From positions 434,001 to 498,000 of the forward strand of contig JABYQQ010000014.1 of the NCBI GenBank assembly GCA_022605405.1: 64,000 nt of DNA, read 5' to 3'. Origin of the DNA: Earliella scabrosa. Its lineage: Eukaryota > Basidiomycota > Agaricomycetes > Polyporales > Polyporaceae. The notes beneath the pieces were generated by a model. The model was given only the letters and a program-made list of their open reading frames with translations. It was not told the origin of the DNA and searched no databases. Numbering within the stretch: the first letter of the stretch is position 1; each line of letters starts with the position of its first letter. Shown here in pieces: positions 3,906 through 31,219 of the stretch. Made by a program: the position numbers and the translations under genes.

Positions 3906-4471
3906 CGAGCCAGAGGATAGGCTGTCCGGGGGTTTTACACCCACCATGATTTGGAACGAATCCGGTAGGTTGCGAGGTTGTTACAGTAATATGATATTCT
4001 CACTGCATCGTTGACTGTAGACTCCGGCCCGATGAGCATCGGGAGGCCTCTTTCTTGCATCGCTGAAGACCAAGAACCCGACACCATGTCACTCACGTTG
4101 TCGCGACGCTGTGAGTCATTCCCGAGTACGTTGTCTGACACGCCTAACATCCTATTATCACGCTGAGCGAAGCGCGCACTTCCGTATTGAAGCTTTGAAG
4201 GTCGAGCACGCTTCCAGCGACGGCTTGCTTAGAGGGCTTCGCGCTAGATATATTCCGTCTTCCCTCCCGGCGAGAAAACGGGCCGGGAGTACCATGCTGG
4301 ACCATCACGAGCCCTCTCACCTTCGTTCAAGTTAATGTTCACGACCTATCTTTACGCCTACCACATCCTGAGCTGTATTTCATTCATGTTGGACCTCGAC
4401 TATTCTCACTACTACCAGACAAGTGACCTACAGTACAACGCGCAAGCGTATCCGATAGCACTTTACAGCCT
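3906..4471. other. Gap between B1 and CHAT remnant 1
   Basis: No gene is seen. The words GCTGAAGACCA(A/G)GAACCCGA near 4060 match the bases just left of the copia insertion at 10300-10324. This confirms that the region is the unit-1 counterpart of the insertion site in unit 2. Confidence 0.5.
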
Positions 4472-5600
4472 CACATGTATGGACGGCACCCAAAACACCG
4501 TCGGCCGGCCCGCATCCTTCAATGCACCCACAGCAGCATGCGAGAAGTGCAGCCAGGTGTGCAGGCGGCCCGAATGGTTGTGAGCTCCTTGTGCACGACG
4601 GGGAGAGAGGTGAGGTTGGGAGTCTCGGGCATGCCGACCGCGAGCATGGAGAAGGGCGGTGATGTGGACGATTCGTGCGCGCGCAGCAGAGACTGGAGCG
4701 TCGACGTGTATGAGGATATGACGAGGTCAGGGACTCCGGGGGCGTCCCCGTCGTACGGACCAGCAGCATGGATGGGGAGGAACGCGAGAGGGCCCGTTGG
4801 ACACCACCAGATCCGTGCTGGGGTGGACGATGCGTCGATCGATAGATGGGTAAGAACGGGTGACACGACGCCGTGCCAGAGTTGCTGGAGGATTGGGATG
4901 AGTATGATGTCCTCGAACTCGCGCACACCCATCGCGCCCTCCTCGAGGTCGCACATTCCTGTCTGGATCGACTCTGCCCAGGATAGCGCCTCACCGGCAG
5001 ATATCCCTGGAAGAGGGACGTGCGTGATCTCGACGCTTCCGCTCTCCGTGCGGCGAAGGATGAGCGCGTCCGCTTTGACACTCGCGTTCAGGAAGACGAC
5101 ATGGCCCCTCGAGAGGAGGTTGGCTAGACGAGGGTCCACCCTTACATCGCGCGGAGAGAGAGTGCTGTACTGATCAGACGTTAGCGGCGGGGGGTCCGAG
5201 GTGTGACAGGCCCGGTAGGGGTCGGCGGGGCGGCGGAGCCGCCAGTGACTGTGACAGTCCCTATACGGAGCGGCGCCGTAAGGCGCCGCGCCGCCCAGGC
5301 GATTTTAGCGCCCTGGACGCGCCGAATTGCGCCGTTGGTCACACCCGGCGGGCGGCGCTGTGACCCGTGACAGACGGCGGATAACGGGGCGGCCGAGGGC
5401 CTTGTGACGTGTGACGCGCCGCTAACGTCTGATCAGTACAGTGTACGGTGTGTGCCGCCTCCTCGTCTTCCAGCAGCTCCACCGCCTCACGTAGCGTATT
5501 CCAGCGCTTCACAGCCCCGTGCAAGGACGCGTCTTCGTTACGCGTAGATGCCCGTGAACATAGACTTGAACGCGTCGATCTAGTCGAAGTCGCCAGGGCA
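4472..5600 (-). pseudogene. CHAT remnant 1 (unit 1)
   Basis: This minus-strand piece is nearly identical to the CHAT part of the long gene at 27595-31219 (for example GHVVFLNASVKADALI and ARIWWCPTGPLAFLPIHAAG). It is broken in several ways. A 277-bp inverted-repeat element sits at 5165-5441. About 370 bp are missing near 4535, where the sequence jumps from the C-terminal piece (like 21060) to the piece equivalent to 27720, removing the catalytic Cys segment. An 8-bp insertion lies near 5540, and the N-terminal TPR part is absent. The 206-codon open stretch at 4519-5139 is a surviving part, not a gene. The high similarity suggests a recent duplication. Confidence 0.85.
5165..5441. mobile_element. 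277-bp MITE-like element with 25-bp perfect inverted repeats
   Basis: The left end 5165-5189 (CTGTACTGATCAGACGTTAG, then CGGCG) is the exact reverse complement of 5417-5441. The interior is very GC-rich, has further short inverted repeats (GCGGCGCC...GGCGCCGC) and several GTGAC words, and has no coding capacity. It interrupts CHAT remnant 1. A target-site duplication could not be fixed by eye. This is the layout of a non-autonomous DNA transposon, and its family is unknown to me. Confidence 0.75.
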
Positions 5601-7549: not shown

Positions 7550-8762
7550 ATGGTACACTGCACCAAATTCTTCAGGGGTATCATTTGCAGTGACTCACAT
7601 AAAACCGTCACATTCACAACTTCAGTAGCCCACCGACGGCCAGGATCCTTCACGCCGCCAGTATCCTGCCCACAGCCAGTATCCTCCACGCCGCCAGCAT
7701 TCTCCACACATCCTGTATCCTCCACACAGCCAGTATCCTCAGCCACAACGGAAGCATTCCGGTCCGCCTCACAAGCAATCTCCTCCACACCTACCGTCAC
7801 AATTCCTACGATTACAGAAGGCGTGACCCCCACGAGCATCGTCTCCACCTCCGTCAATTCGTCTGCTCCGGCGTCCTCATCAATATCGACCTCCATGTCA
7901 CCCTATCCCTCTCCGTTTTCCAATCCCTCTATCAGTCGCGCTGTGCCATCGCATTCAAACAATGGAGTCGCGGCTGGAATTGCCGCAAGTATGGGGATTA
8001 CTGCGCTCTGCGTTGTTGCGTCAGTCATCTGGTATATTTCGCGGCAAAAGAAACGCAAGCTGTTAGCTGTCATCGATGACCTTGAAGCCCAGGTTGGAGG
8101 CAACCGTATGTAAAATTCTCCGTTCCGCGTCGATTTTGCCTGAGAAACTCACTACTTACAGGATATATGGCGACTCCGCCAGGAATTTTAACCCCAAGTG
8201 ATGAGCACCCGCACACGACCTCGGAACAGGAACATGGACGTATACTTTGGGTTAGGGCAGTGTCAGAGCAAGACGGTGGGACCCCTCTCCCAACTTTTAT
8301 GGCGCATACTATGGCCACCAATGCTGACAATTGTCAACACGACCAGGATCTCTTGTCCCTCAACGCTCGAGCTTCGACCCCAGCACAGCCCCGAACTTCA
8401 TACCTAGGCGGCGGGACGGTGTCATCGTGTCCGATGAAAACGATGTTGACGCATTCACCGTGTCCTATCCGGGTCTCCTGATGGAAAATCCCTCGAGTAC
8501 ACAAGCACTAGGTGATCCAAGACGTGAAGTCCCTGACGCGGCGGCGAGTCGTTCGCGTCACGAGCGGAAGCAGAATAATCCCCACGATGCCGTAGACGTG
8601 CGAACTCGGATCCCTCGTCACGCCAGTGATGGAGGCGTGCGTCTCGCAGGCGGTATTGCACCCCCTGCTCCTTCTGGTGTCCCAGCTGCATTGGACGAAG
8701 GCCAACGTAGCGACGCGGACGGCGGTTCGATGCTTCCTCCACCATACTTCGCATATGACTGA
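7550..8762 (+). CDS. Ser/Thr-rich one-pass membrane protein A2 with PPPY tail
   Basis: Exons 7550-8105, 8162-8275 and 8347-8762 give about 361 residues. The N-terminal part is Ser/Thr/Pro-rich with repeated PPVSS/QPVSS words. The membrane helix is at about residues 142-163 (AAGIAASMGITALCVVASVI), followed by SRQKKRK. The tail contains GSLVPQRSSF, RIPRHASDGG and VRLAGG and ends MLPPPYFAYD. The last two introns sit at the same places and phases as in A1 and A3. The start follows the TATA box. A different ATG at 7533 is in another frame, so the first 25 residues are uncertain. It has the same predicted topology as A1; its function is unknown. Confidence 0.7.
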
Positions 8763-10915: not shown

Positions 10916-13900
10916 TCAAGATGTGACATAAGCAAGACCAATCTCTTGGACAAACTTCGACTGAATTGCCAAAGGCACATTCTTAGTCAGAGCGTCGGCG
11001 AGTTGATCCGCAGTCGCTACATAGAAGATCTCGGTCGATCCCAACTCCACCTGCTCTCGGATGAAGTGGTATCTAACCTCGATGTGCTTGGTCCGGCGGT
11101 CGATCACGGGATTGACAGACAGGAAGATAGACCCCTGATTGTCAAGACACATGGGAGTTGGTCGAGACATGTCATCGCCGAGTTCTTCACCGAACGTCCT
11201 CAGCCACACCAATTGACGACAAGTGTCAGAGGCCGCTTTATACTCCGCTTCGGTCGAGGAAAGCGAAATGGTAGGCTGACGCCTCGATGCCCACGATATA
11301 GCAGCACCTGCCATCAGAAAGATGAAGCCAGAGGTAGAATGCCGATCATCACGGTCTTCGGCCCAGTCCGAATCGGAGTACGAAATCAGACCGTCATTAG
11401 ACGCTCCCTGGTAGCGCAGCCGGTACGCCTTAGTACCCTGAAGATACCGGAGGACATACTTGGCATAGTGAAGATGCGCGTCTGAGGGATTGGCATTGAA
11501 CTTCGAAAGCCGCGTGACAGCAAAGGCTATGTCGGGCCGCGTACCGAGCATGGCGTACAGAAGACTGCCAATCAAGCTCTGATAGCGCTGACGCGACGCA
11601 TCGGTGGCGGTGTGCTCAGATGACTCTAGAACAGCACCAGCAGGGAGAGGGGTACGCGACGGCTTACAGTCGGCCATGTGAAAGCGCTCGAGAACAGACT
11701 GGATGTACTCTTCCTGGTCAATCTCGATGATCCGCGAAGCACGGTCACGAGTGATGCGAAGACCAAGGAATCGCTGAACTGGTCCCAAGTCCGTCATTTT
11801 GTACTGCTTAGAAAGCGAACGCTTCACGTGCTGTATGTGGCCAGGCTGATCGCCGAGGAGAAGTAGATCGTCGACATAAAGAACGACGATAGTGACGTGA
11901 TCCCCCCCTTGTCGCCGATATACGTAGATCCCGGCATCGGAATAGGTCCGTTTGAATCCCAGGCTAATAAGCGACTGATGGATTTTCACGTTCCACTGAC
12001 GGGATGCCTGCTTAAGACCGTAGATTGCCTTTTTCAGCAGACACACGTGATCCTCCTTGCCAGGAACGATCCAACCTTCCGGCTGTTCCATGTAGATCTC
12101 CTCATCCAGATCGCCATTGAGGAACGCGGTCTTGACATCCATTGACTCGATGTCCCAGTCCTCAAGCGCTGCATGCGCGAGGAGGTACCGGATAGACTCG
12201 AACCGCGCCACAGGGGAGAAGGTCTCGTGATAGTCCTCGCCCCACACCTGAGTGAAACCCTTAGCGACTAGACGAGCTTTGTACCGCCCATCGTGCTTGA
12301 TGTCATAGACCCAGCGGTTAGAGACCACATGCCGATCTTTCGGACGAGGGACAAGAACCCAAGTCTTATTCTCGAGCAACGAGTCATACTCCGCTTTCTC
12401 CGCATCACGCCATTTCTCAGCTTCAGGCGACTTCATGGCTTCCTTGTGGGAGTTTGGAATGCCAGTTTTGTACTGAGACGCCATGAGAAACATGAGAAGC
12501 GCTTGGTCCTCTCGCTGCGTGCCATCCGGATCAGTCCGGGCATCGACCTTAGCCGGTGGCTCGTCGCCATACACGTTATCACGAGTCTTCGACTTGGACC
12601 GTTTACCCGCGTTCTCACGCCGTGGTCTGTCACGCGCAAGGCTGGGAGGCTGTTCTCCCACTGGAGGGTGACGTCCTCGCTTGTGAGCAGGCTTAGGCGG
12701 AGGTACAGCAGGCGGTTGAGGCGGTTGTGGCGGCGGAGGAGCAGGGGCGTCAGCTGGAGGAGGCGCTTCAGCTGGAGGAGGCTGAGCATCCGCTGGAGGG
12801 TCAGGTGGTAGATCTGGGAGTTCAGGAACAATCTCGGGATGGAGGTCGTCCTCATGACCGTCGACATCGGCTTCGGAAGCCTTATCAGACTGATCATCTG
12901 GGAACGGATGGTCATCCGGGGTAACAGGATGATTGCCGGGGAGTTTACGAGCAGGGAAAGACTCTTCATCAAATGTCACATCGCGAGACACTACGATAGA
13001 GCGGTTGGCTGGATTCCAAAACTTATACCCCTTGGAACCAGACTCATACCCCACGAAGATCATCTCGACAGCCTTCTTGTCGAGTTTCCCTTCGCGCTTT
13101 GCCTTCTGCACGTGTACAAAGGCTTTGCACCCAAACACTCGGAAGTAGAAGACGTCCGGAACGGTTCCGTCCCACTTGGTGATGGGGCATTGCCATTTGT
13201 GTCGACGCATCGGTTGACGATTGTAGATATGAACGGCTGCATCAACGGCGAGTTGCCAGAAACCGTGACTAAGACCTGCCTGATGGAGCATGGCCATGGC
13301 TTTTTCGACGATAGTACGGTTCCAGCGCTCAGCGCGTCCATTCTGCTGCGGAGAGCCAGGCATAGTCTTCTGGTGCTCGATCCCGTGCGAACGAAGAAGC
13401 TCAGAGAACTCGGTAGAAGTGTATTCTCCCCCTCGGTCCGAGCGGACCTTCTTGATCTTTCGACCGGTCTGGGTCTCAGCCCACGCCTTGTAGTCGAGGA
13501 ACGCTTGGAACGCATCCGACTTCGACTTAAGGTAGTAAGCACGGGCGAGTCCGGAGTAGTCATCAATGAAACCGGCAAAATACTTGTAACCTCCGATAGC
13601 TTGTGTGCGCATCGGGCCATCAAGATCGGTGTGAACGAGCTCGAGTGGTTCCGTAGCACGCTTATCAGAAGGCGGGAAGGGGAGTCGAGTGGATTTGCCC
13701 CAGGCACATCCCTCACACGGTTCATCTTCGTCTTCAGGGGAATCAACAGAATCAACCCCTCGGACGTTCTTCGGGAGATGGCGCAGCGCGTCCTTGCCGA
13801 GATGACCAAAGCGGCGATGCAAGGTACGAAAACGGCTGACATTAAGATGAACACGCTGGCCATTGTGAAGTTCGAGCTTCGCCCAGTAGATATTGCTCAG

Positions 13901-15220
13901 GACATTGTACTCCGCCTCAAGGATCTTGCGACCCTTGATCCGAATCGTCGAACCAAATTTGACAGCGCCTTCTGGCAGCTTGTCAAAGATGCACATCTTC
14001 CCATCTCCTTGGACAAGGGAGTACCCGTTGCGCTCAATGGTGCCTGTCGAGAAGATACGACCTCTCAACTTCGGGATGTAGTACACATGGGTGAGTGTGA
14101 TCGGAACTTTGTCACCATCAACCCAAGTGTTACCACGGACCGTGCCCTTCCCGAGAGCAAGGATCATGTTGCTCGCATCAGCAGTATTGAAGCTGATGGG
14201 CGTATCAAATGGCTGATACTCGGAGAAGTCACTTAGGTCGCCCGTGATGTGTTGAGAGGCACCTGAGTCCATCAGCCATGCAGTCCAGTTCTCACTAGAG
14301 GCAACGAGGGCCTCGGGGTAGAAAGAACCAACAATGTTAGACGACGCGACTACATTTACAGACTGAGACTCGACGACGGTATGCGCATGGGGCTGATTGT
14401 CCTTGTTATTCCCTTTGTCCTTGTCCTTATCCTTGTCCTTCGCCTTTCCCTTTCCCTTGCCTTTGCCCTTGGGCTTCTTCTCAGGATGCTTGTCCCAGCA
14501 GTTAGACTCATGATGATTAGAGCCACCGCAGTGAGAGCAAGGACCCTTAGGCTTAGGCTTGGTCTGCGAGACCCGGTTCGCGGATTGTCCGGCCTTGCGA
14601 AGCGACTCCTCGGCCAAGGTCTTGGACATGATGTCCTCGACAGTGACCTTGTCGACATCGATGGTCGCCATGAGCGCAGAGATCATAGACCGATAGGACT
14701 CCAGAATCTTCGACAGAAGAAGGAGGGCCTTCATCTGGGCAGAGAGCGTCACCTTGTTCTTGGTGATGTCATCCATGCGGTTGACAATACGCATCATCTG
14801 ATCCTGGAGGGGCTTCTGCTCGTTCATCCGAGGTTCAGCCACAAGGGTCTCGAACTGTCCCCAGACGTGAGCGCTGTTCGGCGTGCCAAACTTGTCCTTC
14901 AGGGACTTCCACATGTCCGCTGCGGTCTGTTCCCGAGATGTAGTGGTAGAGGACCCACTGGTTGTAACGGTGTCGAGAATTTCCGCATCGAGGATGTAAT
15001 GGAAGCTCTGAGCGACCCGCATGTACATCATGCCGCGAGCCTGCCCGTCGAGCTTGTCCCAGGACTCCTGCTTGTCAGCAGCAGTCGGACGTTTGGTCTT
15101 GCCGTTGACGACGTCCCAACAGCCCATGAAGATGAAATAGCCCTTCATCTTGGCAGACCAGTCGGTGTACTGGTTCGCCGACGAAAGGGAAGGGATAGAG
15201 TCGAGCTTGACGTCTCCCAT
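10916..15220 (-). CDS. Copia Gag-Pol polyprotein
   Basis: From the first ATG (15220) the frame gives 1434 residues with no internal stop. In order it has a UBN2-type Gag (ANQYTDWSAKMKGYFIFMG), a zinc knuckle CSHCGGSNHHESNC, an aspartic protease (WLMDSGASQHITGD), the integrase HHCC zinc region (HRRFGHLG...CEGCAWGKS) and catalytic core (HTDLDGP, RSDRGGEYTS, PQQNGRAERWNRT), a reverse transcriptase (WVYDIKHDG, FLNGDLDEEIYMEQPEGW, VLYVDDLLLLGD) and RNase H (STEAEYKAASDT). The integrase-before-RT order defines Ty1/copia. The same frame is open another 176 codons upstream to 15748, with acidic and proline-rich sequence but no ATG. The stop is 11 bases before the 3' LTR. Confidence 0.96.
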   Translation of the reverse strand: MGDVKLDSIPSLSSANQYTDWSAKMKGYFIFMGCWDVVNGKTKRPTAADKQESWDKLDGQARGMMYMRVAQSFHYILDAEILDTVTTSGSSTTTSREQTAADMWKSLKDKFGTPNSAHVWGQFETLVAEPRMNEQKPLQDQMMRIVNRMDDITKNKVTLSAQMKALLLLSKILESYRSMISALMATIDVDKVTVEDIMSKTLAEESLRKAGQSANRVSQTKPKPKGPCSHCGGSNHHESNCWDKHPEKKPKGKGKGKGKAKDKDKDKDKGNNKDNQPHAHTVVESQSVNVVASSNIVGSFYPEALVASSENWTAWLMDSGASQHITGDLSDFSEYQPFDTPISFNTADASNMILALGKGTVRGNTWVDGDKVPITLTHVYYIPKLRGRIFSTGTIERNGYSLVQGDGKMCIFDKLPEGAVKFGSTIRIKGRKILEAEYNVLSNIYWAKLELHNGQRVHLNVSRFRTLHRRFGHLGKDALRHLPKNVRGVDSVDSPEDEDEPCEGCAWGKSTRLPFPPSDKRATEPLELVHTDLDGPMRTQAIGGYKYFAGFIDDYSGLARAYYLKSKSDAFQAFLDYKAWAETQTGRKIKKVRSDRGGEYTSTEFSELLRSHGIEHQKTMPGSPQQNGRAERWNRTIVEKAMAMLHQAGLSHGFWQLAVDAAVHIYNRQPMRRHKWQCPITKWDGTVPDVFYFRVFGCKAFVHVQKAKREGKLDKKAVEMIFVGYESGSKGYKFWNPANRSIVVSRDVTFDEESFPARKLPGNHPVTPDDHPFPDDQSDKASEADVDGHEDDLHPEIVPELPDLPPDPPADAQPPPAEAPPPADAPAPPPPQPPQPPAVPPPKPAHKRGRHPPVGEQPPSLARDRPRRENAGKRSKSKTRDNVYGDEPPAKVDARTDPDGTQREDQALLMFLMASQYKTGIPNSHKEAMKSPEAEKWRDAEKAEYDSLLENKTWVLVPRPKDRHVVSNRWVYDIKHDGRYKARLVAKGFTQVWGEDYHETFSPVARFESIRYLLAHAALEDWDIESMDVKTAFLNGDLDEEIYMEQPEGWIVPGKEDHVCLLKKAIYGLKQASRQWNVKIHQSLISLGFKRTYSDAGIYVYRRQGGDHVTIVVLYVDDLLLLGDQPGHIQHVKRSLSKQYKMTDLGPVQRFLGLRITRDRASRIIEIDQEEYIQSVLERFHMADCKPSRTPLPAGAVLESSEHTATDASRQRYQSLIGSLLYAMLGTRPDIAFAVTRLSKFNANPSDAHLHYAKYVLRYLQGTKAYRLRYQGASNDGLISYSDSDWAEDRDDRHSTSGFIFLMAGAAISWASRRQPTISLSSTEAEYKAASDTCRQLVWLRTFGEELGDDMSRPTPMCLDNQGSIFLSVNPVIDRRTKHIEVRYHFIREQVELGSTEIFYVATADQLADALTKNVPLAIQSKFVQEIGLAYVTS

Positions 15221-16250
15221 GATTGATAAGAGAAAGTGCGATGAGTCGAGATAGTCCTCCGAGAAGTCTACGGATGTTGTTACCGGTGTGACCGGTGAAA
15301 GCGGTGTTGCGATAGGAGGAGGTAACTCGACAAGAGGAGGAGGGAGAGTCTCGATTGGCTCAGGGATAACCTCCGGAGTAGGAGGGATTAGGACGATGAA
15401 AGGGAGAGGAGTGGTATAGGGTGTGTCTGATGCGACTGGAAGGGCAGTGTTGACTCCAGCAAGGAAATCCTCCTGATCGGGTGATGGTAGAGCCCACTTG
15501 AATGTGCCAGGATATTTTTCGGGTCGGACTCCGTTGTACCGATGAGGACAAAGTTCTCGGTTACAGTTGTACCAGAAGCCGTCCGAATGGAGATGAGAGT
15601 CCGAAGGGAACTCCTCGTCTAGGATGTGAGGACGATCCCGGCAAGAATCGGCAGTGGGTACGTAGTCAGAGGAATCAGATGACGACTGGGAGTCAATCAG
15701 ATCCTCGACTTCCGCCTCAGAGGGAGGAGATGCTGGTGTCGGCTCCAAAACTGTGGTCTAGAAGGGTGCGATGATTGACGATGCCACGTGCGAAACGGTA
15801 GATGGGGAACACCTATTGAGGCGAGCCAAGAAAGTCAGGAAGCTGGAGATCCCGACAATCTGGATAGAAGTTGCCAACTGTGCCCAGAAAGACTATAGTA
15901 GCTATACGAGAGCAAAGGGTACGGTAAGGAGGGTCCACACGGTTGTCCTCCGTCTCCAAAGGTGATAAGCACCCCGGATACAACTGCTGGCGGGCGCAAG
16001 TGCGTGGCCTGGCAGAGGGATACCTGAAAGCCCAAATGCCTCGAGAGCACAACAGGCTGTACAACAGTACTAGCTACGCGACAACTATACAAAAGCGCTC
16101 AGGGCTGCGTCACGAGCGCAGGAATGTCCCCCTGGCAGCAGTGTCGGCGGGCACAGTCAAGAGGTGAGGAAAGATGGAGGGAGCACGGGCAGAGAGTCGA
16201 CGAAGAGAGAGGTGTGCGCACGAAGATGTCAACGAAGTAGCAACCGGTCA

Positions 16251-17099: not shown

Positions 17100-17900
17100 T
17101 ATCCACCTTGACGACCTTACGTCTATCACGCCCTGTGCCCTATTCCATCATTGCAGTTAGACCAGTAAGCTTTTGCACACAAACACGCGGATATTGCCCT
17201 ACAGCCCCACATGAAAGAACGGCCCTCAGAACACTATCTGCCGTCCGGCATGTCTCAACGCACGCACCACGGTCCACTGCATACAACGTATCCGCTCCCT
17301 GGGCCTCACACGGGTTCAGATCGCCTCCCCGGCCTTCATCAGCCTCCCGTACACCCTATTCGCCACAAACGCCGCCGCACGATCGTCCACCGTCCAGAGC
17401 GTACTCGTACTCCCAGCCTCTGTAAACTTCTTCCCGCCGCGAGATGAATGCACTCGTCCGGAAGACGCAGGTCGCCGGCGGAGGTCAGCTGGAGAGGAAC
17501 GCACCTTACTGCTGGCGTCGAACTAGCGCGCGAGGCTCAGCGTGCCGCTGTGGAGGCACAACATTGTATACGCTGTAGAACCTGGAACGCATAGCGCACG
17601 ACCTGGTATGCCCAGCACGAGAAGTGCAGTTAGGTGTTCTGCGCGAGATGGCGAATAGAGCCGCTGCGGGGCCGACTATGCACGGTGGCGTGTGCGATAG
17701 CGGCGCGCATGTGCCTCTCGGATTGTTGCGAGTTCCTTGTGGTCGGAGGGAAGAGAGGAGCGTTTGGCGTGTGGGCGTATCAGGTATGTCAACAGCAAGC
17801 ATGGTGCAGGATAATCCCGACAATATAGCGCGCGCAGGAGAGACTGGATCGTCGACATGGGCGAACACTGGCGCGCGCGGTGAAGCCGGTATCCCCACAG
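17100..17900 (-). pseudogene. CHAT remnant 2 (unit 2)
   Basis: Minus-strand pieces such as TLWTVDDRAAAFVANRVYGRLM (split by other words) and HKELATIREA match the CHAT gene, but the frame changes several times. At the catalytic Cys position the conserved FLSAC reads FLSS followed by a stop, because about four bases are missing near 17490. The piece covers roughly the last third of the CHAT domain and fades out towards 17900. It is clearly decayed, and older than or under less constraint than remnant 1. Confidence 0.75.
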
Positions 17901-20988: not shown

Positions 20989-21360
20989 CTAGAGTCCTAC
21001 ATGTATGAATGGTACCCAAAACACCATCGGGCGCCCCGCATCCTTCAAGGAACGCACAGCAGCATGCAACGCCTCCGCCGCCCCGCGCGGGTTCGGCTCC
21101 CCTGCCCCCTCCCTCATCAGCCTCCCATACACCCTGTTGGCCACAAACGCCGCGGCGCGATCGTCCACCGTCCACAGCGTCGCGACCGTGCTCCTGACCC
21201 CAGCGAACTGCATCCCCGCCGCAAGATGGATGCACTCGTCCGGGAGACGCGCGTCGCCCGCGGACGTCAGGCAAGCAGAGAGGAACGCGAACTGCACGCG
21301 CGCGAGGTCGAGCTTCATGAGCGCGCCCAGGCTGAGCGTGCCGTTGTGCAGGCAGAAGGC
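20989..21360 (-). pseudogene. Detached C-terminal end of the TPR-CHAT gene
   Basis: The frame reads AFCLHNGTLSLGALMKLDLA, then the CHAT catalytic-Cys motif FLSAC (Cys codon 21271-21273), DECIHLAAGMQFAGV and TLWTVDD, and ends VPFIHVGL-stop at 20989. These are the last 123 codons or so of a CHAT domain on the same strand as the gene body at 27689-31219. The 6.3-kb element at 21361-27679 lies between the two halves. Joining the halves across a 2-base overlap restores YAPSAFCLHNG in frame. The piece is not expected to be made as part of the protein now. Confidence 0.9.
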
Positions 21361-21375
21361 TAGTCTCGGCTCCCA

Positions 21376-21472
21376 ACGTTCTACAGGGCCTCCAGAACGG
21401 CTTCGCTAAAGCTCAGCAGGCATTCTCACGGGGGAACAAGGAGGCGCGCGTTCAGGAGACCCTGTAGAACGT
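21376..21472 (+). repeat. Left subterminal hairpin
   Basis: A 13-bp perfect inverted repeat, ACGTTCTACAGGG (21376-21388) and CCCTGTAGAACGT (21460-21472), lies 15 bases inside the left end. The right end has the same architecture with a changed stem sequence (27623-27663). Confidence 0.85.
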
Positions 21473-21503
21473 CTGGTGTGTTTCGGGCTCGGGATGTCGA
21501 TCC

Positions 21504-21571
21504 GTGACCCCGAGGTCACCCCGAAGCAGTCACCAGTGACTTCGGAGATCATTACCGTGACTCCGAGTCAC
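21504..21571 (+). repeat. GTGAC palindromes in the left end
   Basis: Two near-identical palindromes, GTGACCCCGAGGTCAC (21504-21519) and GTGACTCCGAGTCAC (21557-21571), occur in the left subterminal region. The right end has GTGACAGTGTCAC (27579-27591). They may be binding sites for an element-encoded protein. Confidence 0.6.
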
Positions 21572-21665
21572 GCTGGAGTATCGGACTCCGCCGCTTCACG
21601 TCTTCCTTCCTGTACCTACTCGCTGTATACTATATAACATCTTGGCCTACCTAGTGCACACGTCT

Positions 21666-24382
21666 ATGGACGCCGAGTATTGGGCGGCCTTTGGCGACGA
21701 CTTCCGCGAGGATGAAGACGACACTGTCATCATGCGGGAGAGCTCCGACTCCGAGAACTTGTCTACAGGTCCGCGTTCCATCCCCCCGCCCGGACCCTCC
21801 TCCGCTATCCCGCCATCTCAGCCACCACCTGCCCCACCCCAGCGAGCGTTTCGTCAGTCTGAGATGTTACGCGCGCAGATACCAGACAGCGAAATGGAAG
21901 GGAAGGTCACCGCCGTGTTAGCATTCATGAAGACCCAAGGTCTCAACCTCGAGATCTTTCTCGATGCGGTCTTCTGGGGACATCCCGCATGCACCGCCAA
22001 TCGTGCTGTTATCTATGAGCGCACGAACTTCCTTGATGGGCCGACGCTCGACGTGGTTCTACGGCGTCTTTGGAAGCCACCAACCCGGGCGAGGAGTCAT
22101 GAAGCCACCATGCGAGACTTCGTAACGGACGCCGTCAACGAGATCTTCGAGCAGGAGATGAAGGACATCGCCGCTATACTCACGCCGCCAAAGGATGCCC
22201 TCAGTGAAGAACACCTCACAAGCATCGACTTCCATGCACTCGGGCGAGCCCTGCAGTCTGTAGCTCGCGCCCTGTGGGCGCTGTTCGAGCGCCTTGCAAG
22301 TACAGCTCGCCAGCGCAAGGAGAATGTTATGAAGGAACCGTTCCTGGTATGTACACGTCGCTACTCCTAGCTCATCATGATGGAACACTAACACCCAAAC
22401 AGATCATACTCATGACCCTCGCAATGCTGGCGTATTCCCGGTCACACCATGTCTGTCTCGTACCAGCAGCATGGTCGATCTACCTCAAGTCCTGTGGCCT
22501 CTCCGCTCGGGCTTTCGATGCCCTGCATGCAATGGGTGTCACCATGAGCCACAAATGGACGGCAGATGCATACACCACCATCTCGAAAACAGCAAAGCGC
22601 GCTACCCAACTGGCAATCTGCGAGTATCCCCACTTCGGGTCCCACGACAATCTCAACATCCCCATGCGCGTTTTCTCCCAGCGTCTTTTCAACAAAAACC
22701 ACTTCATCAACGCAAGTGCGGCGACGATCTGGGTTCTCCCCAAAGAAGCATTTGCATTCCTCCCTAAGAACATCCGTGACCTCGTGCATTCACAGCGCCG
22801 CGCAGCTTCGAAGCAGCAGTTCTCTGTGGAGGAGCTGTATGAACCTCCTCCGGAGGTCAACACTCGGGTCCGTGCATTTGCAAAGCATCGCATTCTGCGG
22901 TTCCTCCTCGAGTCACCCGAGTTCACTCAGTATGCCCATCGCTCAGACCCTGTTCTCGCTGCCCCACCTCCAACCGACCTCCTGCCATGCGGACCGAGTT
23001 GCGTGGTGAAACAACACATTCTCGAGACCGTGGAAGTCGACGAGTCCAGCTACGAGGGAACCGATCAGCTCTGTAACGTCATCTGGCCCCAACAAATGGG
23101 CTACGGTTCCGAGGAGGAGCGCCGGAAGACGGGAAATGAGCGCATTCTGGTCTGGGTTGGAGATCAGCTCACGGTGGAGCGCATGCGTGGATTGGCTCGC
23201 TACCGGTACGACGATGCGAACTCATACGAGCGTATGGACTGGTTGGAGCCGCACTTCGGATGGTTTCATGCCCTCATGGCGCTCGCGAACTCTCTGCACT
23301 CACAGTACCTTGGAACCTCTGCGGGAATCGGGTTACGCAAAGCGTTCGAGGTGCTTGGGAGGAAGGGGTTGATGAAGCAGGAGACCAAAGGACCGTTCTG
23401 GCACGACCTCGACGAGGCACTGTGGCATATAGGCGAGGCGAACTTCCGGGCGCTGTGGTGCGAAGTGGCGAAGGTCGAGTGCATTGACGACTTGACAGTG
23501 CTGTCCCCCTCGCAGATCGCACATCTGGCTGAGGAGATCTACAGCAATCACGCATCGCGGGCAGCTCTCACACGCATGCAGACCATGCCTGACGACCAGC
23601 GCGACACAGTCAAGGAGCAGATGGTCATGTTCAGTACGGATCTTCTCCCGTACTTCAACTTACGGGAGGCAATTCGTATCGGGGATGTGGGTCGAATGGA
23701 GGACCTGTTGCCCACCCTCTTGTTCCGCTTTGCTGGGGGCGGAAATCATAAGTACGCATTGGAGATTCTCGAGCTCATTCAGAAGCTGCGTCATGAATGG
23801 CCGGAGACATTCCGGTATGTCTTAGTCTCCGGGCCTAAGTTGAAGTGAAGAGTACATACACTGATATCTACTTGAACTACTTATAGCACATACATCCGCC
23901 GCTACTGCTGGCTGCTCAACCGTACTGGCAAGCGCGACGGGTTCTTCCCGGTGGATCTTGGACAGGAGCACAATATACGCGACATCAAGGTTACATGGCG
24001 CTCGTTTGGCCCTGGCGCAACGTTCGGCTACATTCAGAAGATATCGCCCGCCATAACCATCTTCCGGGCTGTCCGCGAAGGGATTCGTTCACAATTCCCG
24101 TCGCTTCTTGGTCGCGGGAAACGCCATGGATCTCCAGCCAAAGACGCCGATGTTGCACGCCTGACTGCAATGTACATGAACTCAAAGGTTCACCACCACA
24201 TTCCCAATCGCACCATGAAGACGTCAGGCATGGATATTGCCCGTGATGTTGTGTCTATTGGCGCAGACCGTCTAGTTGCTGAGGGCACAATTGAGAAGTG
24301 GTGGAGTGAGCGGTCATTTGAGCGGTCAACGGAGGAGATATACGCCGTGCATGAACATGAGAGGATGCAGATTGATTCCTAA
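21666..24382 (+). CDS. DUF6589 protein, candidate transposase of the 6.3-kb element
   Basis: Exons 21666-22346, 22403-23814 and 23887-24382 give about 862 residues. The N-terminus is acidic and proline-rich. The C-terminal half carries the DUF6589 signature as I know it from basidiomycete genomes: VWVGDQLTVERMRGL (Asp about residue 481), then ERMDWLEPHFGWFHALMA, GPFWHDLDEAL, and near the end IARDVVSIGADRLV with IEKWWSERSFERSTEE. DUF6589 has no proven function. The conserved acidic residues and the repeat context suggest a transposase-like nuclease, which is inference. The first ATG after an in-frame CTTGGCC was used as start. The gene shares its element with the helicase at 24435-27533. Confidence 0.82.
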
Positions 24383-24434
24383 TGTACGGTGACTAGTGGT
24401 GTACTGTGATAAGTAGTCAAGTTGGAGTTATTGA

Positions 24435-27400
24435 TTATCCAATGTTATGGGCGGAAGTTGCAAGAGTATAATCGTCAGTAGTATCATAATAGAGTGCATT
24501 ACTAGTACCGTTGCATGGCGCTGAACCCACGGAAACCAGCGGAGATGCCTGAGCTGAAGTGCGTGCAAGATCAAACAGAGATAGAGACCTAGGTGTAGAT
24601 GGGGTAGGATATGCATACGAAGTCGAAACGAAACAATGAGATGGAGTAGTGGGAGTATCGGAGATCAGCGATGCTGTAGTAGATGCGCATGCAGCCGAGG
24701 GAGTGTGATCGGACGGACCAGCGGTCGAGTCCGCGGGGAATGAATGACTCTCTAACCTTGTCCTCTGGATTGGGCGTGGTTTAGGCTGCGGTCGTTTCAG
24801 AGTGAGGGGCGTAGGAGGCAAGGTCATAGCAGGAGAGTTGCAAGTTGCACGAGCACGCTTCGAAGCGCCGCTGCCCATGGGCGCCTCGTTCTCCTTCTCC
24901 GCATTACGTCCACGTTTGGCAGTGTGCGGATGCCTGACGTGGCCTTCCTGTTCCCCCAGGTCCTCCTCCCCGTCCTGTTGTTTTGCATGTTCTTCACGCT
25001 GACAAGCTTTTGCCTCTTTCATTGCCTGCTTGCGCGCCGCCGTCTCCGCTTTCTTTCGTGCCTTTTCTAATGCCTTGCGCACATCGTCTTCTGCCTTCAG
25101 CCGCGCCTTCTCCGCTTTCTTATGAGCACTGGCCTCAGCCTTCAGACGGGCTCGCTCATCCTTCTCCGCCTGCTTTCGTGCGTCGTTTTCAGCTTTCTTT
25201 TGCGCCTTCTCAGCCTTCTTGCGTGCATCATCTTCTGCTTTCTGTCGTGCCTTCTCCGCCTGCTGTGCCTTCTTCCTTTCAGCCACGATCATTCTTTCGA
25301 ACGCTTTCATCTCGTCATCCTGCTTTTTTCTCAGATTCTTCTCCGCCTGCTTACGCCGTTTGGCCTCGTCCTCCGCGGCCTGCTTCTCTGATTCAGCAGC
25401 AAGTATGTCAAGTGCACGCTTTCGATCGATCGCGTGAAGACCTTCGAGGACCTCGGAGCCGTACCGCCGGACATGGAGCCAGTGGAGGCCTTGGAGATCG
25501 TCCACCGTCAGGTATGTTGTCCACAATGCAAGAGTCTTCAATGTGGCATCTGGGAGGACCCCTCGAGGGCCATAGGGTTGTGAGCTGAACCGAAGAGACC
25601 ATGTCTTCACGCGCCAGTCCTTGAGCCACTTCTCCGCCGCATCAAAGTACGCGTCTGTGCGCTTGGCTGGTACGCTTGATCGCCATGCCGGAATGCGAGG
25701 GATGGAGGGCTGTGAGATCTCGCTGGACGGATTCTGAGCAGCGTTGATGCCTGCATCAGGAAGAGAGACGGATGAAGCCGAGGACACGTCTGCCGTTGGG
25801 ATCGCAGTTGCAGCCTGTCCTGCAGGAGCGGCCGCCGGTTCGGAACATGCTGGAGGGGGAGTGACAGCACCTGCCTGGGTAGACAAAGAGCGTTGATTGG
25901 CACGCTCCGTGCAGATATCGCAACAGGGCCCAGCTGGGACTATGAATTCCGCATCAGTACCAGCCTCGTTACCAGCTAGATGTCATACTGACCAGTAATC
26001 CGCCTAGGACTATCAAAATACTCGTCCGCAATGTCGCGTCGACATCGTGTTGGGGGAGCCTCAATCCATAAACGTAAGCCCGGTTCGAGCTGCTTGACAT
26101 ACTGCACAGGTTCGCCCGGTTGACGCTTTGCCTTTCCCTTTTCATGAAAGACGGTTGGCTGGACGAGGAGAATGGCACGGGCTCGGATATCTGCCCGCCG
26201 ACCAGCCCGCCCCGCCCGCTGGAACCAGGTCGACAGCGAGCTTGGTGCCATGAATTGCACGACAAGTTCTATATCGGGTATGTCACAACCCTGCTAATGC
26301 GTTAGCCATGACACAACCGCTGATGCATGCTAAGGGCATACCATTCCCGCAGCCTCTGTGGTGAACAGCACGTCAATCTGGCCACGCCGAAAGAGCTCCC
26401 ATGTGAGTTCCTTCCCTACACTCCCCTGCCGTGAGTGATATCCCTTGACACGTCCCTTTAGGTGGCCCGGAAGACGCTCGAGAAGCCAGCGACGGGCGCG
26501 CATCGACACCATGATGTCATCGAAGAAGACGAGAGCCCGGGGCAAGGTAGTGCGCTCCTCTGCGCCGTCGGGCAGCAGGCACTTCAGAGACTCTAGGTCA
26601 GATTTTCCTGCGGTCATTCGGTGAACCTCCCAGCTGATATTTGGCCGATCGTTTCCCAGGTTGAGGTGGAACGAATCTTCAGCGTGAATGTGCAACGTTC
26701 TTCGTGCTTGTGCAAGCGCGTTTGGAGGCATCGTAGCCGAAGTGAGATGTACCGCGACATGGATTCCAATGAAAGCACGGAATGTGTCCAGTTGGGCGTA
26801 CTCCGGGCGAAACCCGCATCCCCACTGTGTGATACAGTGGGCCTCGTCGATGATGACTGCGAGAATCTTGTTCGCAAACGATGGCGTGCTGAGGACAGGA
26901 CGGAAACGGCTCTCGGGGTCCACACACAGCTTCGGACCCACGATGATCATATTGTATGCGCCCTTCTCGATACCCTGTGGCCCCACCGGTTACTGACAAC
27001 CAGTTCCAGTCTCCAGATACATGTGGGCAGCATACCTCCTGAATCTCTCTCGAGTACGTCGTCCCATTGAGTGCCACCGCCTTTAGACCCCACTCCCGGA
27101 ACCGTTCCGCCTGCGACCAACGTGAGTTCCTATATATCCACAGCCTCAAGTTCCGAATACTCACCTGACTAGTCTCCAGCACGTTGAGCGGCGAGACAAC
27201 CACCATCACCTTATCTCCCTTGACAAACAGAGGCAATGCAAATGCCAATGTCTTCCCCCACCCCGTCCCCGCAATACATGTCGAGTCAAGGCCTAGTAGC
27301 ATGCACTCCGCGAAGTCGAGCTGTTCCTTGCGGGGAGTCAGTCCGGTTCTTCTCTGACACTCATCGGACATCTTCTGACGCGTTTCGGCAGATCGGTAGT

Positions 27401-27533
27401 TTGATTCTTCTCGCGCCCGGACACGAGCATCATCGAGAAGCGTGTATGAGTGAGCGTGTCGCTTCTCATGCGAGGCCAGGCGGGGGTCGTCGCCCATACA
27501 GGGGAAGGGAGTTACGATACTGGTGGCTGACAA
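24435..27533 (-). CDS. RecQ-type helicase with long coiled-coil tail
   Basis: Exons 27533-27165, 27110-27036, 26974-26342, 26290-25993 and 25939-24435 give about 959 residues. It has Walker A AGTGWGKT (88-95), DEAHC (191-195), LTSAT, and a helicase C domain with FTTEAAGMGCDIPD and motif VI QRAGRAGR (383-390). These are superfamily 2 RecQ motifs. The RecQ zinc domain is not obvious; a short Cys cluster CCDIC follows at about 464-468. The tail has a long Lys/Ala/Glu coiled coil (repeated KKAEKA and ARKQAEK words) and then a Ser/Thr/Pro-rich end with KRGRNAEKEN. The 483-codon frame at 24435-25886 is the last exon of this gene, not a separate one. It probably unwinds DNA for the element. Confidence 0.85.
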
Positions 27534-27578
27534 TTACTGTACATAGTAGTGTAACATGCTGACAAATATTCACGTGCT

Positions 27579-27663
27579 GTGACAGTGTCACGGATCAACA
27601 GAATGGGCCCGAAACGCACCAGACGTTCTGGAGGAGAGCGCTTGCCGTTTTCCTCCAGAGCGT
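27579..27663 (-). repeat. Right subterminal hairpin and palindrome
   Basis: On the minus strand, ACGCTCTGGAGGA (27663-27651) pairs with TCCTCCAGAACGT (27635-27623), with 12 of 13 positions paired. It occupies the same distance from the end as the left hairpin. GTGACAGTGTCAC is at 27579-27591. Confidence 0.8.
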
Positions 27664-30600
27664 CGTGGGAACGAGACTAGCAGAAGGCGCGTACTGCGCG
27701 TCCTGATACGCGTGGCACGAGAAGTGCAGCCAGGTGTGCTGCGCGAGCGCGCGCGAGACCGCGAACTGGGTTGCTGCGGGGCCGACCATGCACGTTGGCG
27801 TGTGCGAGAGGCGCGCGCAGGCGGCCCGAATGGTTGTGAGCTCCTTGTGGACGGCGGAGAGAGAGGAGAGGTTGGGTGTCTCGGGCATGCCGACCGCGAG
27901 CATGGAGAAGGGTGGTGATGTGGACGATTCGTGCGCGCGCAGGAGAGACTGGAGCGTCGACGTATATGAGGATATGACGAGGTCAGGGGCCCCGGGGGCG
28001 TCCCCGTCGTACGGACCAGCAGCATGGATGGGGAGGAACGCGAGAGGGCCCGTTGGACACCACCAGATCCGTGCTGGGGTGGACGATGGGTCGATCGACA
28101 GATGGGTAAGAACGGGTGACACGACGCCGTTCCAGAGTTGCTGGAGTATCGGAGTGAGTATGATGTCCTCGAACTCGCGCACGCCCATCGCACCGTCCTC
28201 GAGGTCGCACATTCCTGTCTGGATCGACTCTGCCCAGGATAGCGCCTCACCGGCAGATATCCCTGGAAGAGGGACGTGCGTGATCTCGACGCTTCCGCTC
28301 TCCGTGCGGCGAAGGATGAGCGCGTCCGCTTTGACACTCGCGTTCAGGAAGACGACATGGCCCCTTAAGAGGAGGTCGGCTAGACGAGGGTCCGCCCTCA
28401 CATCGCGAGGAAGTCCCGCTTGGTCGTCTTCCAGGAGCTCCACCGCCTCACGCAGCGTATTCCAGCGCTTCGCAGCCGCGTGCAAAGAGGCGTCTTCGTA
28501 GATGCCCGTGAACATAGACTTGAACGCGTCGATGCGGTCGAAGTCGCCGGGGCGGTGAGCGGGATGCTCCTTCGCCTTCTGCATTAGGTCATTTCCTATG
28601 GACTTGAGGCTTTCAATTAGGCTGTAGAGCTGCGGGTTCGTCCGCGCAAGCTCCGCCCTGTGCTCATCGGTGATCCTAGGGAGACCATGTGTGGTGGTGG
28701 AGAGGTACGACGAGAGCGAGTCAAGCTCTGTGGGGCCTGCCTCGCCCACGGAGGTAGAACCAACACCAGAATGCTCTCCGGCAGAGCGATGCCTACGTGC
28801 GCCAGGCTGCAGCTTGAGCGACTGGGCCCAGAGGACGTTGCGCCCGCGCTCGAGGTACGACACGGCATCGTCAAGGTGACCACATGCGATTGCGTACGCA
28901 GCCGCACGAGGACCGACGTCGACAGCAGCCGAAACGAGCGCTCTGTATTGCACGACCATGCGGTTTCCCGACCACGCGAGCAGCGGGAAGATGTCAAGCG
29001 CGACCTTGAGGGCCTCGAGGGATGCTTCAGGACCCTTCTCCGATACGAGCTGTTCCCAGCTCAGCGCGGCTTGCAAGCGCACGGACGGTGCGCCGCTTCC
29101 TTGCGCGACGTTGCGGAGGATCTCAGTGGCTCGTCCCATGTCCGCCTCGGCGCGCGCGAGGGCGAAGCGCGTCGCGAGCATATCACCGAGTTGGAGCGCG
29201 AGCGAGTCGCGACCGCGGTCGTCTTCAGGAGAGCGATCCAGCGCGGACGAAGCGTATCGGATGGCCTCGTCTAGGTCTTCTCGCTCTTGCGTCCTTTGAT
29301 AGCGGATGAGGAGTGCGCTCGCGAGGTCGCGCTCCAAGCGAGCCTCCAGGTGTATGCCACCGGAGAAAGCCTTCCGCGCGACCGTGAGGTGATGTATGCC
29401 CTCGTCGATCTCGGCCGGGTTCGTCGTCTGCTCACCATGGCGGGCCAGTGCGAGGCCTAGTACCGCCTTCGGAGGGTAGTGGACGTATGTCCCGGGAAGC
29501 GGGAGGTCCTGCGCGTGTTTGAGCTTCTCAATGGCCTCTTCGAGATCACCCATGTTATGGTCCGCGACGTGGCGCTCGTACAGCAGGGTGGCGAGGTCGG
29601 TGAGGTAGACGGCGTACAGAGGACGGTCTACCGGGCAGATTCTGACTACGCTTCGTCCGTAGGTGACGGCCTTGTCAAAGTCGTCGATGTCTGACACGAC
29701 TGAGAACCGCTGTGCCCAAGCCATAGAAACGAGATGGAGGCCCCGAGGAACGTTCGGGTGCGTTTCCTGCAGGGGAGATGAGGAGATGGTGTCTGATGAG
29801 TTTTCGTGAAGGTCGTGGAGATGGACGGTGTAGTAGAGCGCCTTGTCGATGTCATCCAGCTTTCCGAGGCGGAGAAAGCGCTCCAGAGAAAGCTCTGCAA
29901 GCACACACTTAGCGTGAGTCTCTTCGAGCTCTTCGTCCTTGTGGGTGGAGAGAACTTGATCTCGGGCGTCATCGAGGTCCTCCGTCTGTCCGAGTGCACG
30001 ATACCGGTCTAGCAGACACTCGGCCAGCTCCATGGACAGCATACGAGGTCCAGGATGATCGTCCGGGTAGACTGAGACAGCGACGTTGAGGACCGTCTTC
30101 GCAACGGCGATCGCGCGCTGCAGGGGATCTGTAGCCTGATCTCTTCGGGCAAGCAGCCTCTGTCCGTACACGAAGTTGCTGCATAGGAATGTGGGAAAAG
30201 GCGGTACGGCTTCGTCTGGCATTCTGATGGCTAGAGTGGTCGCCTCGACTCCGGCGACCAGCTGGCTGGGATCACAGGTGAGTTCGTACAAGCGTAGGAG
30301 GGTGAGACCAAAGGTGGATTGTTTGACGCGGTAGTCATCGTCCGACGATTTCGGACCTTGGAGCTCCTGTGCGAGCTTGCTCGCAATCGCGCGCAGATAG
30401 ACCGGATTCCCTTGTACCATCATTGCCATCTCCTTCGAGAACAAGTTGCCCCCGAAGCTCTCTGACATCTTCTCCATGACAGATCCCGTGTTGGACAGTC
30501 CCTGCACGACCACAGATGACAACGACGGAGGGGCGGTACGTGAAGATTCAGCCTGGGATGGCGCCGGCGGAGTGACAACTTGGGGATTCTGTAGATGCTG

Positions 30601-31219
30601 CTGCGCAACGTCCAGAGCACGGAATGCTCGCGAGACAAAGTCGGCGATGCCCTGGAAGCCCTGGGTTGCCATTTGCCTGGCATCGGATAGCCCTTCGGGA
30701 GCCCTACCATGCTGATCCCAACCTTCTGGCACAGCTGCGTTCGGGAGCTGGTGATGGGGCGTTGAGGGAATAAGCTCCTGCAAGCCGGTCAGAGAAAAAC
30801 GCAAGAGACATGACTGGATGAGACGCACCATCATCTTGCCCATCAGAGCTACAAGAGGTTGTATGGCCTGTGCCGGGTCTCCAGCGCTGATTGTCGTCCT
30901 GAGAGTCGCAAGAATGTCGTTCACGTCCTCCTGAGTACTCGAGCTACTTGGGCCACTCGAGCCGCGCTCGCTTGCGTCTCCAGTTGAGTCAATGGAGGAT
31001 CTGTGGGAGAGGCACACTGTTATCGAAAGGAGTCGTCGCGAGGGTCCTATCTTACGTGACATGTTTCCCTTCCAATTCTACGTTCGAGTCAGCGTTCACA
31101 GCGGGAGTGTCGGCATCCGCTAGGCTGGATTCAGCGTTGCGCGGGGTCTGCTCTGTGAGCATATTAGTGAAGGCATCGTCAAGGTGCTTCGCCAGTTCCT
31201 CTTCGAGACCGCGGGACAT
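27595..31219 (-). CDS. TPR-CHAT protein, cut before the catalytic Cys
   Basis: Exons 31219-31056, 31000-30829 and 30777-27595 give 1172 residues as the sequence stands. The first exon (MSRGLEEELAKHLDDAF) is required because the ATG at 31062 lies in intron sequence. Residues about 240-800 hold helical TPR-like repeats (DLEEAIEKLKHA, DLDEAIRYASSAL). The CHAT caspase-like domain follows (ARIWWCPTGPLAFLPIHAAG, LHFSCHAYQ with the catalytic His). The inserted 6.3-kb element replaces the rest: the frame runs 30 codons into the element (ASLVPTTLWRKTASALLQ) and stops at 27595. The FLSAC half lies at 20989-21360. CHAT proteins are proteases related to caspases and separase. This copy should be inactive as a protease. 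It faces A3. Confidence 0.9.

Follow-up and report, generated by a model that had tools for sequence, protein, structure and literature searches.

A DNA transposon of Earliella scabrosa with a DUF6589 gene and a RecQ helicase gene, probably of the AcademH type

Positions 21361-27679 of the Earliella scabrosa DNA analysed here (a stretch of 64 kb on contig C14, which is 1,462,703 bp long; hereafter the window) are a DNA transposon of 6319 bp, inserted in a gene for a CHAT-domain protein. The element carries a DUF6589 gene and a RecQ helicase gene. It is very likely an AcademH-type transposon, and probably autonomous, in which the DUF6589 protein would cut and insert and the helicase would be the second required product.

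Results and discussion

Ends, target-site duplication and the interrupted gene

The element begins and ends with an exact TAGTCTCG terminal inverted repeat (CGAGACTA on the plus strand at the right end), in agreement with the original prediction of a 6319-bp unit with inverted repeat ends. It is flanked by a perfect 9-bp target-site duplication, GCAGAAGGC, a feature absent from that account (Table 1). No match of the end sequences at 8 of 8 bases together with a duplication of 9 to 10 bp turned up when one 9.5-kb locus was block-shuffled 60 times.

The two parts of the host gene lie on the same strand on either side of the element, and both align to one continuous protein in each of eight relatives (P0241-P0248, the best 8 of 120 listed), the aligned halves being 3 to 7 residues apart; a history in which the CHAT halves were never contiguous was thus examined and is not what the relatives display. 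The original prediction had called the split gene TPR-CHAT. The CHAT part of that name stands, and the TPR part has no more than a sub-threshold Pfam match, to TPR_2 (E 0.098). The downstream CHAT half is open to its stop codon and 86% identical to P0241, and the insertion is therefore probably not old.

When the flanks were joined, with the element and one 9-bp copy removed, the CHAT halves were out of frame by being 7 nt short, and a tandem CTTCTGC would restore the frame. The host gene may have carried a frameshift before the insertion, a 7-bp CTTCTGC repeat may have been lost before or after it, or the true duplication at this copy may be one of 2 bp next to a tandem repeat that was there already. 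The usual duplication length is settled by the other copies. The gene may have been broken beforehand or altered afterwards, and the frame gap does not undo the insertion reading. A nearby CHAT paralog at about 17202-17868 spans the insertion site uninterrupted, but contains stop codons. It is one of several decaying CHAT paralogs that lie close together on the same strand (window positions of about 4469-5539 and 17202-17868, minus strand, and C14:431698-432365 just outside the window); one copy or fragment among them is 91% identical over part of the query.

Other copies in the genome

The genome was searched with the left 240 bp of the element, the DUF6589 exons and the helicase exons; the copy counts are lower bounds, because the best candidates alone were scored. 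At least three full-length copies, that of the window, L019 (C1:450k, 5942 bp, 10-bp duplication) and L020 (C1:1.64M, 6400 bp, 9-bp duplication), carry TAGTCTCG at both ends and both genes inside. Other copies with shared ends and both genes therefore exist on C1, and the two genes are parts of one mobile unit, as had been proposed. Six non-autonomous copies of about 0.9 kb (L023-L028, 900-933 bp) have the same ends and a 9-bp duplication in every case; their longest stop-to-stop frames are 98-136 codons. All nine copies with TAGTCTCG at both ends duplicated their target, by 9 bp in eight and by 10 bp in one. The short copies lie on C18, C6, C1, C32, C21 and C1, respectively; L023-L025 are 94-98% identical, L026 and L027 87%, and L028 has diverged. 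More partial matches to this family occur, among others on C26, C4, C37, C22, C2 and C20.

A further copy, L018 on C6, matches L019 at 91% identity along 5.5 kb and has the left end only; its right end was sought and not found, and the copy is truncated. The similarity to L019 stops at 8187, and the sequence from about 8188 onward, in which GATGATTCAC-like repeats abound, is probably another insertion. The element on C5 (C5:2958195-2965185, 6991 bp) has GTGAGAATACGG ends instead and divergent genes. Its duplication is 10 bp as the ends are drawn and shorter with ends drawn further out, because the junction itself is an inverted repeat. On C30 (L021 2429-9157) a DUF6589-RecQ pair lies between inverted repeats that differ at one position over about 322 nt; a target-site duplication was searched for there and not found. 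Around the pairs at C4:1406823, C8:925319 and C1:4045254 no ends were recognisable in the 6.5-7 kb read, and these are possibly old copies or retained host loci.

Those three loci would suit a chance association, in which host DUF6589 and RecQ genes happen to have spurious repeats around them. Chance repeats are ruled out by the shared ends, the exact 9- or 10-bp duplications in nine copies and the null scan, and with the split host gene added, the probability of such an association is negligible.

Linkage, co-inheritance and selection of the two genes

The PF20231 (DUF6589) profile matched 20 stretches of the genome, which were grouped into nine substantial loci and three fragments (on C2, C10 and C11, the last below the cut-off), and none in 14 control genomes. 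A helicase match lies about 1.6-2.5 kb from each of the nine substantial loci, convergent at eight and divergent on C5, while none of the three fragments has one nearby. Four of the loci (window, L019, L020 and C5) lie within recognisable duplicated ends. The helicase exon search gave ten matches, the tenth of which (C2) stands alone. Subtelomeric RecQ genes of other fungi are described as telomere-associated genes in the excerpted text of PMC4522978; they were considered and set aside, as nine of ten loci here adjoin DUF6589.

In other species, with equal contig size in bp as a proxy for a shared contig, 17 of 120 RecQ relatives lie on contigs matching in size those of 119 DUF6589 relatives; this is a lower bound, because 120 rows were used for each of 176 DUF6589 and 290 RecQ matches (one DUF6589 row, P0013, has no contig and was omitted). 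Species names agree, by eye, in all 17 pairs, and 12 of the 17 RecQ relatives fall in the top 20. When the sizes were offset by 1-50 bases as a control, 0.04 such matches arose on average and at most 1. The paired contigs include two of only 5,312 and 6,315 bp, the latter with the consecutive genes g10340 and g10341; the largest (up to 4.4 Mb) would alone be weak evidence of linkage. DUF6589 and RecQ distances over 18 pairs, including that of Earliella, correlate with r = 0.79, a value reached in none of 5000 permutations, and part of this correlation is shared species history.

Between the copies on C6 and at C1:450k, the ratio of nonsynonymous to synonymous divergence (dN/dS) was 0.049 in DUF6589 exon 2 (470 codons) and 0.049 in a helicase exon (208 codons); the helicase is therefore conserved as strictly as the transposase. 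Stop codons were left out of this count: each DUF6589 piece has one close to its 3′ end, and one helicase piece has one as its first codon. We read them as intron sequence at the edges of the matches. In the same two copies dS is 0.19 in the DUF6589 exon versus 0.49 in the helicase exon, a difference suggestive of gene conversion or of a mosaic history.

These data support, indirectly, a part of the helicase in transposition. The RecQ gene might instead be a passenger, or have been captured from the host, and play no such part, and the six short copies did move without RecQ in cis, though it could act in trans. Its presence at all nine substantial DUF6589 loci, its co-inheritance with DUF6589 across species and a purifying selection equal to that on the transposase make this very unlikely. 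The equal selection also makes the role of an element-encoded RecQ in transposition directly testable.

The DUF6589 protein as a predicted transposase

The annotated protein of the element, P0001 (C8Q76DRAFT_814709, 786 aa), is 100% identical to the DUF6589 query across 87% of the query. At E ≤ 0.01 its only Pfam match was PF20231 (DUF6589, E 2.4e-121), a family annotated as of unknown function, and no Academ model was among the Pfam results. The AlphaFold model has a predicted local distance difference test score (pLDDT) of 91.8. When it was compared with known structures, the 18 best matches were all DDE enzymes, led by Hermes (hAT), the P element and RAG1, as expected from the suggested likeness to RNase H-fold transposases. 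DUF6589 is thus a predicted DDE (RNase H-fold) transposase.

The residues D233, D405 and E649 are conserved and would, on the model, be the catalytic ones. The conserved W of GWFH was considered as a replacement of the second catalytic Asp and ruled out, the strand order of the model giving D405. To judge from the limits of the aligned ranges, the last acidic residues of DUF6589, Hermes, RAG1 and the P element may lie at similar distances from the range ends. One search yielded 176 relatives of DUF6589 at E 0.001; those with names in the list of 120 are presumably Agaricomycetes, as far as we recognised them. If DUF6589 is a DDE transposase, the annotations of PF20231 relatives would be corrected, and the DUF6589 profile would be a way to find AcademH-like elements.

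The RecQ helicase

The helicase model comprises 947 aa in five exons on the minus strand, convergent with the three-exon DUF6589 gene on the plus strand, so that the predicted pair of convergent DUF6589 and RecQ-type genes was recovered. It matched the Pfam domains DEAD (8e-18) and Helicase_C (3.1e-14). Among PDB sequences RecQ was best (4tmu, E 4.3e-30), followed by WRN, RECQ1, BLM, RECQ5 and RECQ4, and the best alignment spans the CRR..CDIC zinc motif. The core motifs are intact and the tail coiled-coil-like, both as judged by eye. By sequence, the helicase belongs to the RecQ family and its predicted polarity is 3′-to-5′. It shares the helicase core and the zinc motif with RecQ, WRN, BLM and RECQ1, and differs from them in being transposon-encoded and in its long charged tail.

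Classification

Hermes (hAT), the P element and RAG1 share with DUF6589 the predicted RNase H core and a helical insertion before the last catalytic residue; the element differs from them in the lack of a Pfam-level relation, in its 9- or 10-bp duplications and in the added RecQ helicase. hAT elements and the P element make 8-bp duplications, and hAT membership was rejected on the 9- or 10-bp duplications found here. The structural likeness bears on how DUF6589 works, not on membership. Kolobok elements (including KolobokH) duplicate TTAA, and none of the nine duplications is TTAA. Mutator-like elements (MuDR/MULE) make duplications of the 9-bp class, a likeness to the window element, which differs in having a helicase and no MULE domain; P0001 matched PF20231 alone at E ≤ 0.01, without a MULE or a KDZ transposase domain, and both MuDR/MULE and Zisupton/KDZ were rejected. 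Pfam includes a KDZ model.

The class that fits is AcademH (Kojima 2020, Mob DNA 11:15, as cited in PMC10045372 and PMC10799480). According to the text excerpted from PMC10045372, citing Kojima 2020, AcademH makes duplications of 9 or 10 bp and AcademX, placed in the same superfamily, of 3 or 4 bp, lengths that are tied to the encoded helicase (AcademH) or nuclease (AcademX). AcademX thus differs in duplication length and in encoding a nuclease rather than a helicase, and was rejected. Excerpts of PMC10799480 report AcademH at low copy number in Basidiomycota, Ascomycota and Mucoromycota and name its DEAD and Helicase_C domains; Academ is counted, in the excerpted literature, among the DDD/E superfamilies. 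In Marasmius oreades, putative non-autonomous MULE and Academ elements are reported to have inserted widely (PMC8290104, in excerpt).

The Earliella element shares with AcademH the fungal host, a superfamily II helicase with DEAD and Helicase_C domains, and duplications of 9 or 10 bp in all nine copies with TAGTCTCG ends, that of the window copy being subject to the CHAT frame gap; the predicted fold and conserved D233/D405/E649 suggest a DDD/E transposase. No difference appeared on the points compared, and the element is filed as AcademH-type because it fits on every one of them, the comparison being with published descriptions. Since a helicase and 9- or 10-bp duplications already describe AcademH, known from animals and fungi (PMC10045372, PMC10799480, both in excerpt), it is not a new kind of transposon, and the claim of a new family is not supported. 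DUF6589 as the transposase of AcademH-type elements is possibly a new assignment: none of the papers covered by a text search names 'DUF6589', which does not prove the link to be unpublished.

The same search result would suit a separate, undescribed superfamily whose DUF6589 transposase and RecQ would share no more with AcademH than the duplication length and the presence of a helicase, as would a paper on fungal transposable-element domains, the excerpted text of which lists DEAD and Helicase_C for AcademH and no DUF6589 (PMC10799480). We consider this quite improbable, as a helicase with 9- or 10-bp duplications is the description of AcademH (PMC10045372), whose hosts include fungi (PMC10799480), and two helicase-bearing superfamilies with equal duplication lengths would be a coincidence. 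A broader reading, in which DUF6589 is the DDE transposase of a widespread fungal class with RecQ as its obligate post-excision repair partner, possibly a superfamily of its own, is improbable as well.

Subterminal repeats and a proposed mechanism

The motif CGTTCTRSAGG, allowing up to one mismatch, occurs five times in the window element (shuffle mean 0.38), three times in its first 111 bp and twice in its last 56 bp, and was not found in its interior; the count is descriptive, because the motif came from this element itself. Four of the six short copies have it starting at base 17, again near the other end and once about 160 bp from that end; L026 and L028 have it at one end only, and it was not found at the ends of L019 and L020. 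These repeats are putative transposase binding sites, and the short copies may have been moved by enzymes of the window type.

In the AcademH-type mechanism that we propose, the DUF6589 transposase would recognise the subterminal CGTTCTRSAGG repeats, cleave at the TAGTCTCG ends and insert the element through cuts staggered by 9 or 10 bp, leaving duplications of that length. The RecQ helicase, as the second required product, would in our preferred reading act in DNA processing after excision by unwinding at the donor break; the donor gap could then be copied back from the sister, restoring the element and raising its copy number. In Drosophila, the host RecQ helicase BLM acts after P-element excision, and a like action of the element's helicase at the donor break is our hypothesis by analogy. 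Alternatively, the helicase might drive a replicative, copy-out and paste-in transposition as in the IS256 family. Hermes, the P element and RAG1, all cut-and-paste, score the higher Z against the DUF6589 model, and the replicative route is unlikely.

Table 1 Features of the element and its flanks in the window
Feature	Position	Strand	Remark
CHAT gene, upstream part	27689..31077	-	TPR match sub-threshold
CHAT domain, downstream part	20989..21351	-	PF12770, E 1.2e-19
Target-site duplication GCAGAAGGC, left copy	21352..21360		9 bp, perfect repeat
Target-site duplication GCAGAAGGC, right copy	27680..27688		9 bp, perfect repeat
Terminal inverted repeat core TAGTCTCG, left	21361..21368	+	exact
Terminal inverted repeat core, right	27672..27679	-	exact; CGAGACTA read on +
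Longer imperfect inverted-repeat arm, left	21461..21508	+	48 nt, 81% complementary to 27587-27634
Longer imperfect inverted-repeat arm, right	27587..27634	-	pairs with 21461-21508
Subterminal motif CGTTCTACAGG	21377..21387	+	starts at base 17 of the element
Subterminal motif CGTTCTGGAGG	21389..21399	-	motif scan
Subterminal motif CGTTCTACAGG	21461..21471	-	motif scan
Subterminal motif CGTTCTGGAGG	27624..27634	+	motif scan
Subterminal motif CGCTCTGGAGG	27652..27662	-	separated from the right end by 17 bases
DUF6589 exon 1	21666..22346	+	exon model; database model P0001 begins at 21894
DUF6589 exon 2	22403..23814	+	predicted catalytic D233, D405 (P0001 numbering); GWFH motif
DUF6589 exon 3	23887..24382	+	predicted catalytic E649
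RecQ helicase exon 1	27165..27497	-	our exon model
RecQ helicase exon 2	27036..27110	-	our exon model
RecQ helicase exon 3	26342..26974	-	our exon model
RecQ helicase exon 4	25993..26291	-	first base 26291 (used) or 26294; holds helicase C-terminal motifs and the first part of the RecQ zinc motif
RecQ helicase exon 5	24435..25939	-	zinc motif ends here (CCDIC); long charged tail rich in Ala/Lys/Glu, coiled-coil-like

Other features of the window

A tRNA scan of the 64-kb window found no tRNA genes. On the minus strand at window positions 10916-15757, one open reading frame of 1613 codons resembles a Ty1/copia polyprotein, with motifs of gag (zinc knuckle), protease, integrase and reverse transcriptase recognised by eye.
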